64,000 nt of DNA from Lachnospiraceae bacterium (GTDB taxonomy: Bacteria; Bacillota; Clostridia; Oscillospirales; CAG-272). The stretch is from positions 1-64,000 of the forward strand of contig JAKSPT010000006.1 in assembly GCA_024404495.1 (NCBI GenBank). Direction: 5' to 3'. The notes below the pieces were generated by a model, which was not told the origin of the DNA, searched no databases, and was given only the letters and a program-made list of their open reading frames with translations. Below, piece after piece: positions 45,367 to 55,443 of this stretch. Both the position numbers and the translations under genes were made by a program. The stretch's first letter is position 1. Each line of letters starts with the position of its first letter.

Positions 45367-45610
45367 CATCCCCGTGGCGAACACGGGGATGCCTTTTTCT
45401 GTAACTCTTGAACCGACTGAATGAGGGCGCGGCGCTTCGGATAAAGCTGACGTAGCAGCGCGCAATGCGAAGACACCGGGGGAGGCGGATCGGGGCAGGA
45501 GATCACGAATGATAATCTCCCCCGGAAGCAAAGGAGCAATATTCGGAGAGCCCAAACATTACTTACCCCTTATGCCTCTTTGGTTCTTTCTCGGTCGAGA
45601 AAGAACATCG
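45367..45610. repeat. Dispersed intergenic element, copy A
   Basis: Opens with CATCCCCGTG/CACGGGGATG plus a T-run, contains the conserved core GTAGCAGCGCGCAATGCG then AGACACCG, and ends TTACCCCTTATGCCTCTTTG followed by a hairpin GTTCTTTCTCG/CGAGAAAGAAC and CATCGCGTC. It lies just beyond the 3' end of the minus-strand pseudo-maturase gene. Confidence 0.82.
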
Positions 45611-52136: not shown

Positions 52137-52395
52137 CATCCCCGTGACCGATGCGAACGGTCACGGGGATGTCTTTTGTTCTGTTGGTTACTTTTTCTTT
52201 TACGCACGGCAGGCGAACACTGCGCGAGGCGAACCGCTGGGTAGCAGCGCGCAATGCGGAGACACCGAGGGAGGCGGATCGGGGCGGAAGATCACCGAAG
52301 ATGATCTCTCCCGGCTTCAAACAGGCTTTGCCCGAAGAACTTATTGATAAGTTCTCCTTATGCCTCTTTGGTTCTTTCTCGGGCGAGAAAGAACA
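52137..52395. repeat. Dispersed intergenic element, copy B
   Basis: Opens with CATCCCCGTGACCG/CGGTCACGGGGATG and a T-run, which also terminates the CorC-type gene; then the core GTAGCAGCGCGCAATGCG and AGACACCG, and the end TTATGCCTCTTTGG with hairpin GTTCTTTCTCG/CGAGAAAGAAC. Its last 38 bases encode the C-terminus of the minus-strand DUF4430-like gene. Confidence 0.85.
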
Positions 52396-53125
52396 CGCAT
52401 CCCCCGCACAAAATGCTGAGGATCATAACACCCGGCGTGGAGTCAAAGGTCGAAGGATTATCGGAGGCAAGCACGCGGCAGTAGGGGGGCACGAGGACGG
52501 TATCGGCTTTTTCGGCGGTGATCTCGTGGGCTTTGCCGTCAAGGGTGAGGGTCACCCTGCCGTCTTCCCCGGTCACGAAGCCGGAAGGAACGCCGTCCAC
52601 GAGGATGCTCATCCCGGCGGCGGGGGAGGTAACGGGATTCCAGTCGGCGTCGTAACCGGCGGTGTAAAGAGTAAGGGAGATTTCGGAGCCGGACACCTCG
52701 TATTTATCGAAGAAGGCATAGGTGTCGGAGTAGAATTTCATATCCCGATAGAGAAAGGCGGTCACGCGGTCGCCGTCGGAAACCGGGTCGGCAAGGCTCA
52801 TCGGAGCGCCGTCGTTGTGATAGTAGCCGTAGCCGCCGCCGTTGTCCTTGTTCCAGAGTTTCGTCATCGAGATGCCGAAAGCGGTCAGCTCGGTGCCGTA
52901 GCCGGAGGCACCCGCGGGACAGTAGGCAGCGTGGGCGCAGGCGAGCGCGTCGGAGATGGTCAGAGCGCCGTCGGAATCGGCATCGGTCACGGTGACCGGG
53001 CGGTAAGCAAGCACGGGCGTGCCGTCTACGACGGTAACGAAGACGGTGATCTCTTCCGCGGAAACGGGCAGACAGAGAAGCAGGGTCAGAACGGCAAGCA
53101 GAACGAAGGCAAACGCTTTTTTCAT
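52358..53125 (-). CDS. DUF4430-like exported, membrane-anchored protein under B12 control
   Basis: A 255-residue protein: signal peptide (residues 1-23, ending VSAEE), a dockerin/EF-hand-like loop (TDADSDGALTISDA, about 47-60), then a DUF4430-like part with KLWNKDNGGGYGYYHNDG and DGDRVTAFLY, a beta domain (about 165-215), and a C-terminal hydrophobic anchor (VMILSILCGGCVFFLA) with a short basic tail. DUF4430 domains occur in transcobalamin-like proteins and cobalamin-related surface proteins, which fits the cobalamin riboswitch 420 bases upstream; a role in B12 capture is inferred. Its start overlaps the stop of the small gene (ATGA). The last residues FFLARERTKEA are encoded by a dispersed repeat. 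Confidence 0.72.
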   Translation of the reverse strand: MKKAFAFVLLAVLTLLLCLPVSAEEITVFVTVVDGTPVLAYRPVTVTDADSDGALTISDALACAHAAYCPAGASGYGTELTAFGISMTKLWNKDNGGGYGYYHNDGAPMSLADPVSDGDRVTAFLYRDMKFYSDTYAFFDKYEVSGSEISLTLYTAGYDADWNPVTSPAAGMSILVDGVPSGFVTGEDGRVTLTLDGKAHEITAEKADTVLVPPYCRVLASDNPSTFDSTPGVMILSILCGGCVFFLARERTKEA

Positions 53126-53415
53126 GATTGATCCTCTTTCTTTTCTTGTTTTTTCGCTTCACGGCGGTTCCGTTTGGCGCGGATCCGTTTTTCCCGGTTC
53201 TTTTCGGCGCGGTCGGAATCGCGCGGCGGTTTGATGCCGGCGGCTTCGAGGGCGCGCCCCCACGGTCCGAAAAATGCCTTGATGGCGCAGACCTCCTCGG
53301 GTGAAAAATCCGAACGCTTCGGATAACGGGCTTCCCCGGCTTCGGAAAGTGCTTCCGATTTCGCGCGAAGGAGCGCAAGGCAGTCCTCCGCCGCGTATTT
53401 CTGCTTTTCTTCCAT
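53122..53415 (-). CDS. Small protein with a homing-endonuclease-associated (HNH) repeat
   Basis: A 97-residue, strongly basic protein. KRSDFSPEEVCAIKAFFG followed by PWGRALEAAGIKPPR (about residues 33-65) matches the pattern of the HNH/homing-endonuclease-associated repeat (..DF....I...FG.W..AL.AAGL), a DNA-binding helix-turn-helix type unit; the C-terminal 30 residues are a Lys/Arg/Glu helix. There is no nuclease domain. GGAGGGA lies upstream of the ATG at 53415, just after the riboswitch terminator, and the stop overlaps the next start. It might be a DNA-binding protein of the operon; its link to cobalamin is not known. Confidence 0.72.
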   Translation of the reverse strand: MEEKQKYAAEDCLALLRAKSEALSEAGEARYPKRSDFSPEEVCAIKAFFGPWGRALEAAGIKPPRDSDRAEKNREKRIRAKRNRREAKKQEKKEDQS

Positions 53416-53428
53416 GTTCCCTCCAAAC

Positions 53429-53461
53429 AAAAAAGCGTTTTTGCCGGGAAAGCAAAAACGC
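53429..53461 (-). terminator. Intrinsic terminator of the cobalamin riboswitch
   Basis: GCGTTTTTGC pairs with GCAAAAACGC around a 7-base loop and is followed on the minus strand by TTTTTT, ending 14 bases before the start codon at 53415. This is the expression platform: ligand-bound aptamer should favour termination. Confidence 0.9.
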
Positions 53462-53574
53462 AGCGTCTTTTTCAGCGGTGGAAGAATGCCCGATAAGGCG
53501 CATTTCCTGCGCGAAAGATCGGCTGCATTCTTCGTCTCCCAAAAATGTTCCGGTTTTACCCGGCGACCGGGTCC

Positions 53575-53695
53575 TCACGGCAGGTATTCCGACTGACGGC
53601 AGTTCAATAACAAACAGCCGATCACGGTAATGGCGGTTGCGACGGAATTTCACCGAACTTCCCCCTGATCCGGCAGAGCCGGAACCGTGTGACGC
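53575..53695 (-). promoter_or_regulatory. Cobalamin riboswitch aptamer
   Basis: On the minus strand the conserved core GTTCGGTGAAATTCCG (after GGGGGAA) is followed by CGCAACCGCC, and then by GTCAGTCGGAATACCTGCCG, which is the 3' conserved box with the GAATACCTGCC motif of cobalamin (B12) riboswitches. A promoter lies at the 5' side and a mid-leader hairpin (GAAGAATGC/GCATTCTTC) and a terminator at the 3' side. It should turn the two downstream genes off when B12 is abundant. Confidence 0.9.
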
Positions 53696-53712
53696 GATTT
53701 GATTGTGTTACT

Positions 53713-53741
53713 ATTATAGCACGCCGCTCTTTTCCCGTCAA
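53713..53741 (-). promoter_or_regulatory. Sigma-A promoter of the B12-riboswitch operon
   Basis: On the minus strand TTGACG (53736-53741), a 17-bp spacer and TATAAT (53713-53718). Confidence 0.87.
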
Positions 53742-55193: not shown

Positions 55194-55443
55194 GTCCCCG
55201 CGACCGATGCTGACGGTCACGGGGGCGACTTTTCCTATAGCTGTTGCTTTTCCTTTGCTGCACTTGAGGCGAACACGACGCTATGCGAACCACCGGGCAG
55301 CAGCACGCAATGCGGAGAAACCCGGGGCGAACGGATACAGTCCGGGACGGCACAATCGCGAAACGCACGCTTCATACGAAGGTACCCGGTTATGATTTAC
55401 CCCTTATGCCTCTTTGGTCCTTTCTTGGCAAGAAAGGACATCG
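55194..55443. repeat. Dispersed intergenic element, copy C
   Basis: Opens CGTCCCCGCGACCG/CGGTCACGGGGGCG and TTTTCC, has the core GCAGCAGCACGCAATGCG, and ends TTACCCCTTATGCCTCTTTG with hairpin GTCCTTTCTTG/CAAGAAAGGAC and CATCGCGTCC. Compared with copies A and B both arms of the end hairpin changed together. It is preceded by repeated TTTAAG/CTTAAG steps (about 55121-55177) like those before copy B. The rest of 55107-55459 has no gene. Confidence 0.83.

Follow-up and report, generated by a model that had tools for sequence, protein, structure and literature searches.

Cobalamin riboswitches usually control transporters, biosynthesis genes or B12-independent isozymes. At the locus described here, such a riboswitch stands before a gene for a 97-residue protein and a gene for an anchored surface protein. 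The question is what these two have to do with B12. Our answer, in which we have a confidence of roughly 0.7, is that the two genes form an operon that serves B12 acquisition under a cobalamin riboswitch.

The locus lies in a stretch of 64,000 nucleotides, called the window below, which belongs to contig C56, one of the 77 contigs of a 2.7-Mb draft genome. The operon is on the minus strand, flanked on one side by an MFS transporter gene (55030-53777) and on the other by a convergent CNNM/CBS gene. In the order of transcription, its features are:

53713-53741, minus: promoter TTGACG-17-TATAAT with a TG 5' of the -10, 11 of 12 consensus matches
53562-53704, minus: cobalamin riboswitch aptamer (RF00174), short form, 43.4 bits
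53481-53533, minus: mid hairpin of the expression platform, GAAGAATGC...GCATTCTTC, from the predicted fold
53522-53532, minus: antiterminator 5' strand AAGAATGCAGC, from fold, shuffles and covarying relatives
53454-53464, minus: antiterminator 3' strand GCTGCGTTTTT, overlapping the 5' arm of the terminator, on the same evidence
53435-53461, minus: intrinsic terminator of 11 bp with a loop of 5, then TTTTTTG, from prediction and conservation
53419-53424, minus: ribosome-binding site GGAGGG of the small gene, from sequence reading
53122-53415, minus: small gene, 97 aa, with a PF18780-like module (residues 10-62) and a basic C-terminal helix (68-96)
52358-53125, minus: gene of the anchored DUF4430-like protein, 255 aa, from the ORF and its modelled fold

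The start of the DUF4430-like gene overlaps the stop of the small gene (ATGA). The preliminary description had placed a promoter, aptamer, mid hairpin and terminator on the minus strand; all of these were located, with the two overlapping genes downstream. Promoter-like sites number 2 in 1.9 kb, versus 0.4 in shuffles.

The aptamer reaches a moderate 43.4 bits (E 1.3e-7) against an RF00174 gathering score of 31.5, which is the covariance-model support that had been asked of a cobalamin riboswitch here. It covers the family model from the first to the last position. No other RF00174 match in the 64-kb window reaches the gathering score, and none elsewhere in the 2.7-Mb genome reaches E<=0.001. 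Membership of RF00174 and the cobalamin genes in the neighbourhood point to cobalamin as the ligand.

Riboswitches beside the small gene in relatives

The small protein was found in 37 of the 146 genomes of the window's family, and in 26 of the 71 genera sampled. An RF00174 match lies at most 500 nt upstream on the same strand for 28 of these 37 small genes. Model R1, trained on 20 family riboswitches, adds another three (G013, G078, G117), which brings the count to 31 of 37. R1 is largely a sequence model, since RNAalifold on alignment A2 gives only 10 pairs. In two further genomes (G011, G070) the riboswitch is found about 1.1 and 1.9 kb upstream of the small gene, and in one (G107) the locus is cut by the contig end. 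Three genomes (G038, G046, G101) have the small gene away from the riboswitch operon. In G046 and G101 it stands without a riboswitch, and the G046 copy (L239) adjoins a glycosidase-like gene.

All 37 genomes with the small protein have a riboswitch somewhere (33 by RF00174, 4 by R1 only). RF00174 is present in 33 of these 37 genomes, versus 41 of the 109 without the protein (Fisher p 2.8e-8, a value that ignores relatedness).

A second set came from a scan of genome contigs with the motif GPWPRALE alone. It yielded 441 stretches and, after confirmation, 401 relatives; the 80 best loci, mostly from metagenome-assembled Clostridia, were used. In 72 of the 80 (best 80 of 401), R1 places a same-strand riboswitch that ends 110-380 nt upstream of the small gene, with a median of 156. 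Several of the riboswitches that R1 was trained on recur among these loci. As a check independent of R1, RF00174 was run on the genomes of 40 of the best 80 loci and hit the same upstream position in 31 of them.

Among the remaining loci, upstream sequence is absent from L186, L214 and L217 (contig ends), and L222 has a degenerate riboswitch copy (21 bits, E 1.6e-5). With filters off, no riboswitch was found before L235, L239, L245 and L250 (L239 gives 3.5 bits). L239 has neither a riboswitch nor a visible B12 link. In L235, L245 and L250, the small gene lies within cobT-cobU operons. Elsewhere in the L235 genome a riboswitch precedes BtuF-, BtuC- and BtuD-like genes and then corrin-synthesis genes, according to a sequence reading in which the ABC domain was confirmed.

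The small gene precedes cobT-cobU genes in 7 of the 80 loci (best 80 of 401). The order in L218, L225, L226 and L229 is riboswitch, small gene and then cobT-cobU genes. The longer contigs among these four also hold a second CobU-like gene and a histidine-phosphatase (CobC-like) gene, and one gene of the group is presumably CobS. In L229, an ORF of 311 aa lies between the small gene and the cobT-cobU genes. In L218 (7989-9371), the small protein and CobT form one in-frame ORF behind a cobalamin riboswitch. Five loci (L189, L192, L197, L205, L215) have a second riboswitch downstream of the small gene, which means that the small gene can form a switched unit of its own.

In a phylum-wide sample, the small protein was found in 2 of 398 genomes at E<=1e-6, its own genome included; as far as that sample goes, it is largely restricted to the window's family.

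Gene context links the small gene to B12. The preliminary description knew of no such link, and this view is overturned by the riboswitch upstream in most relatives, or by the cobalamin salvage operons. The check it proposed, whether the gene is next to other B12 riboswitches, comes out at the 72 of 80 (best 80 of 401) and 31 of 37 family loci given above.

The expression platform

The predicted structures 3' of the aptamer are a mid hairpin (53533-53481) and, after it, an intrinsic terminator (53461-53435). The run directly 3' of this terminator, on the minus strand, is TTTTTTGTTT. Terminator-like sites in general show no enrichment in the region (5 versus 3.1 in shuffles), so support for the window terminator comes from its position and its conservation. 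For the 5' side of the terminator, the longest competing helix pairs AAGAATGCAGC with GCTGCGTTTTT over 11 bp, and 2.5% of leader shuffles match it. Since the mid hairpin takes up the 5' strand of this antiterminator and the terminator shares sequence with its 3' strand, the structures are mutually exclusive, as an OFF switch needs. The leader as predicted implies a transcriptional OFF switch.

Among relatives, a terminator lies between the riboswitch and the small gene in 50 of the 72 leaders, versus 9.6 (maximum 15) in shuffles. The 3' antiterminator element is found in 40 of the 72, all but one of which (39) have a partner of at least 9 bp; this pattern count over all 72 leaders is unselected. 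The 7-nt core of the antiterminator shows 11 distinct pairings among relatives, which is covariation. These include GCGTAGC/GCTACGC, GTGCAAC/GTTGCAC and ATGCAAC/GTTGCGT, the first two of which are compensatory with respect to each other.

The shuffle test was also run on relatives. It covered the window and 38 of the 50 terminator-bearing leaders, 12 having been dropped by eye for a doubtful terminator or a duplicate locus (L218, L197, L175, L225, L190, L213, L199, L209, L224, L233, L230, L236). In 30 of the 39 leaders tested, the antiterminator pairing is reached by at most 5% of shuffles (p<=0.05). No terminator was detected in 22 of the 72 leaders, and the patterns used found no 3' antiterminator element in 32 of the 72, so some relatives' leaders may act on translation instead. 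For the window, the prediction is an expression platform that adjoins the aptamer and consists of a terminator and a covarying antiterminator.

With cobalamin bound, the aptamer would fold, the mid hairpin would form and AAGAATGC would be kept occupied. The terminator would then form, and transcription would end ahead of the small gene. At low cobalamin, AAGAATGCAGC and GCTGCGTTTTT would pair, the terminator would be broken and both genes would be made. We hold this OFF-switch part to be very probable. The fold and the covariation are computed; the ligand and the direction of switching are what we infer from them.

The surface protein and its transport genes

The protein of 255 aa has an N-terminal hydrophobic segment, a beta domain (24-126), an Ig-like domain (134-220) and a C-terminal hydrophobic helix. 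No Pfam family matches it up to E=1, PF14478 (DUF4430) included, and NCBIfam offers a match at E 0.21 only. The AlphaFold2 model, made with 45 sequences, has a pLDDT of 89.4 and a pTM of 0.79. The underlying alignment (A4) used 44 of the 46 size-filtered relatives, with 49 matched overall.

In this model, residues 24-126 match the beta domain of haptocorrin (4kki) with Z 11.3 at 2.5 A over 94 residues. Transcobalamin follows at Z 9.8-10.7 (human 10.3-10.7) and intrinsic factor at 10.2-10.4. The beta-domain matches span about 92-101 residues at 2.5-3.1 A. The next row with an unrelated fold, SAMP1, is at Z 8.4, and the modelled domain is therefore assigned the transcobalamin beta-domain fold. 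Foldseek finds 5no0 (E 5e-4), and another of its rows is 5np4, the human transcobalamin beta domain with cyanocobalamin. Cobalamin binders hold nearly all top rows of both structure searches.

DUF4430 has been described as located within the C-terminal region of transcobalamins (PMC4350170). The name DUF4430-like, used for this protein from the start, finds no backing in a Pfam hit and holds at the level of the fold and via relatives.

A typical relative (L106, and many other loci) has a riboswitch, the small gene, a DUF4430-like gene, a transcobalamin-like gene, CbiQ/EcfT, a fused EcfAA and an S component. The transcobalamin-like product in relatives has a toroid, a TM segment and PF14478. 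In most relatives, the small gene is in such transport operons without cobT. The S component of L106 matches CbrT (6fnp) at E 8.3e-9, and that of the window's own genome does so at E 7.6e-4. Sections of PMC5997447 describe 6FNP as the ECF-CbrT B12 transporter.

In the window's own genome, contig C53 (L155) encodes a prenyltransferase-type toroid protein, a DUF4430 protein, CbiQ, a two-domain ABC protein and an S component. The CbrT-homologous S component stands beside EcfT and EcfA, which places this operon with the ECF-CbrT transporters. Neither RF00174 nor R1 finds a riboswitch before it. By eye, a promoter (TTGACT-17-TATAAT) can be placed about 35 nt upstream of the start, so there is no room for a riboswitch. 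The genome also encodes two proteins with a B12-binding domain, which means that it has use for cobamides.

It had been suggested that the surface protein could capture B12. The modelled beta-domain fold and the operons of relatives lend this idea strong support, and they suggest that the protein captures cobamides at the cell surface. The anchored extracellular protein would then pass the cobamides on to the transcobalamin-like protein of C53 and the CbrT-type ECF transporter. Binding and hand-over, taken as this part of the reading, are probable.

A different arrangement was seen in L139, L141, L142, L144, L145, L147 and L151, where the riboswitch is followed by a short DUF4430-type protein (c5) and a protein of 119-206 aa (c4). 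L112 has this arrangement with the small gene also present. The c4 protein reads as membrane-embedded, and the member tested, that of L112, has no Pfam match. It may be another cobamide transporter part.

Separately, an interspersed repeat, CCTTATGCCTCTTTGGTNCTTTC, has 3 copies in the window (45567-45590, 52355-52378, 55401-55424) and is found at 33 places in the genome with at most 2 mismatches. The last residues of the DUF4430-like protein are encoded by the copy at 52355, which extends over the 3' end of the gene.

The small protein and what it may do

The small protein had been called an HNH-repeat protein. Against PF18780 (HNH_repeat), the window's copy scores 25.6 bits, which is 0.4 under the cut-off of 26; the relatives L106 (33.7) and L239 (31.1) pass. 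What stands of the label is a single PF18780-like module. Of 75 members, 74 have a PF18780 match at E<=0.01, and at that threshold the 75 show one module and no other Pfam family. None of them has the HNH nuclease domain and several repeats of a homing endonuclease. NCBIfam has no match to the small protein, and PHROGs matched 2 of the 75 members, with a best E of 0.0042.

The residues P32, D36, K46, G50, P51, W52, R54, A55, L56, E57, A59 and K62 are invariant, and they centre on a GPW-RALE turn. Because GPWPRALE was a requirement of the scan, part of this stretch's invariance follows from the selection; a set chosen without the motif shows it as well. No His or Cys is invariant in the small-protein alignments, of which A3 omitted 6 of the 80 proteins (L197, L201, L214, L218, L224, L231) for reasons of contig edge, duplication, fusion or doubtful start. 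Identity across genera is about 60%, the median pI is 9.9 and the net charge is +9 (77 relatives). A spurious ORF is ruled out by this cross-genus identity, the invariant residues, the ribosome-binding site and the fixed place of the gene.

The structure model of the small protein (pLDDT 88.0, pTM 0.58) has helices at 9-26, 39-49 and 52-58, and a long one at 68-96. In this model, helices 39-49 and 52-58 round the GPW turn look like a helix-turn-helix. Foldseek found no solved structure at E<=0.001, and VIA gave only Z 2.2 and 2.0. With no convincing solved fold and a pTM of 0.58, nucleic-acid binding is no more than suggested, by the PF18780 name and the charge. A profile match to the spliceosomal PRP17 (PDB 5mqf_E, 167-235, E 1.8e-4) covers a short FLGPW and a charged tail, and was set aside as probably due to chance.

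Within this family of bacteria, its gene neighbours mark the small protein as a dedicated companion of cobalamin riboswitches and cobalamin salvage genes. It is basic, it stays constant while its partners vary (ECF transport or cobT-cobU), and it persists when detached; a trans-acting regulator is then the simplest reading. Under B12 scarcity, the small basic cytosolic protein would bind DNA or RNA and adjust, in trans, the expression of other cobalamin-related genes. We put this part somewhat below even odds.

More tentatively, the protein could be a relay, by which the cobalamin signal of one leader would give trans control of operons that have no switch of their own, such as the C53 ECF genes or cobT-cobU. 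Genomes with a single riboswitch could in this possible scheme still have a regulon. It is suggested by the persistence of the small gene when detached (G038, G046, G101), by the riboswitch in 37 of 37 carrier genomes, and by the nearly invariant putative recognition turn. The protein may even bind the cobalamin leader RNA itself.

The main rival to a regulator is an accessory role in cobamide salvage: in the cytosol, the protein might for instance serve CobT or an incoming corrinoid as partner or chaperone. Such a role would fit the cobT-cobU genes that follow in 7 of the best 80 of 401 loci, the in-frame CobT fusion in L218 and the absence of a riboswitch before L235, L245 and L250. It fits less well with most relatives, where the gene is in transport operons without cobT, or with a strongly basic protein that has no invariant His or Cys and whose invariants centre on the GPW-RALE turn. 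We regard it as doubtful. The Pfam name HNH_repeat also brings to mind a remnant of a homing endonuclease or mobile element behind riboswitches. We reject this as extremely improbable, largely because of the conserved position, the single module and the absence of a nuclease; the identity of about 60% across genera, the invariant residues and the presence in 26 of 71 genera count against it as well.

As to the surface protein, it might be an adhesin or bind some other ligand, with cobalamin control being incidental. PF14478 is missed, an Ig-like domain is present and the beta-grasp type of fold is widespread, as the SAMP1 match (Z 8.4) illustrates. However, cobalamin binders dominate the top structure rows, and in relatives the gene precedes transcobalamin-like and CbrT-type ECF genes, so we consider this alternative unlikely. 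Still less probable is a decayed or retuned riboswitch that senses a ligand other than cobalamin. The 43.4 bits, the B12 box AGTCGGAATACCTGCC, which departs from the Rfam consensus AGCCAGGAGACCUGCC, and the degenerate copy in L222 could be taken that way, but the core is kept across the 20 family members, whose alignment has 30 invariant columns, and the downstream genes are cobalamin genes.

The reading preferred here, an operon for B12 acquisition, is built from largely known kinds of parts. Like other RF00174 riboswitches, this one matches the model at full length and sits between a promoter and cobalamin-uptake genes; it differs by its short form, the conserved GAAAAGYGYAGC/GCTRCGCTTTTT antiterminator and an uncharacterised small protein as the first gene. 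Residues 24-126 of the surface protein share the beta-domain fold of transcobalamin, intrinsic factor and haptocorrin (Z 10-11.3). Unlike these, the 255-aa protein lacks the alpha barrel, a toroid-type protein being found on C53 instead, and it has an Ig-like domain and a membrane anchor and misses PF14478. With ECF-CbrT (6FNP), as set out in parts of PMC5997447, the genome shares an S component homologous by sequence, a CbiQ-type EcfT and EcfA. Here, however, the EcfA halves are fused, the operon includes a transcobalamin-like surface protein, and the genome's own ECF genes are apart from the riboswitch. From PF18780 HNH_repeat proteins, which share the one module, the small protein differs by its basic tail and the absence of a nuclease domain.

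A 2013 survey of cobalamin regulons (PMC3766115) names, in the passages available, the classes biosynthesis, B12 transport, cobalt transport and isozymes. DUF4430 is absent from its main text, and a small DNA-binding-like protein from those passages. Full-text searches of the open literature, which takes in few subscription papers or bioRxiv preprints, turned up no paper on the small protein or on the riboswitch-DUF4430-ECF operon.

The riboswitch class and the kinds of capture protein and transporter belong to what is known. What is new is the riboswitch-tied small protein family, the DUF4430-type surface protein under a riboswitch, and the conserved antiterminator. If the reading is true, a small nucleic-acid-binding-like protein tied to riboswitches in gut and rumen Clostridia would be a new class of the cobalamin regulon, and possibly a relay from riboswitch to protein. 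A B12-controlled bacterial surface protein with the fold of a human B12-carrier domain would also make B12 capture by gut bacteria testable.
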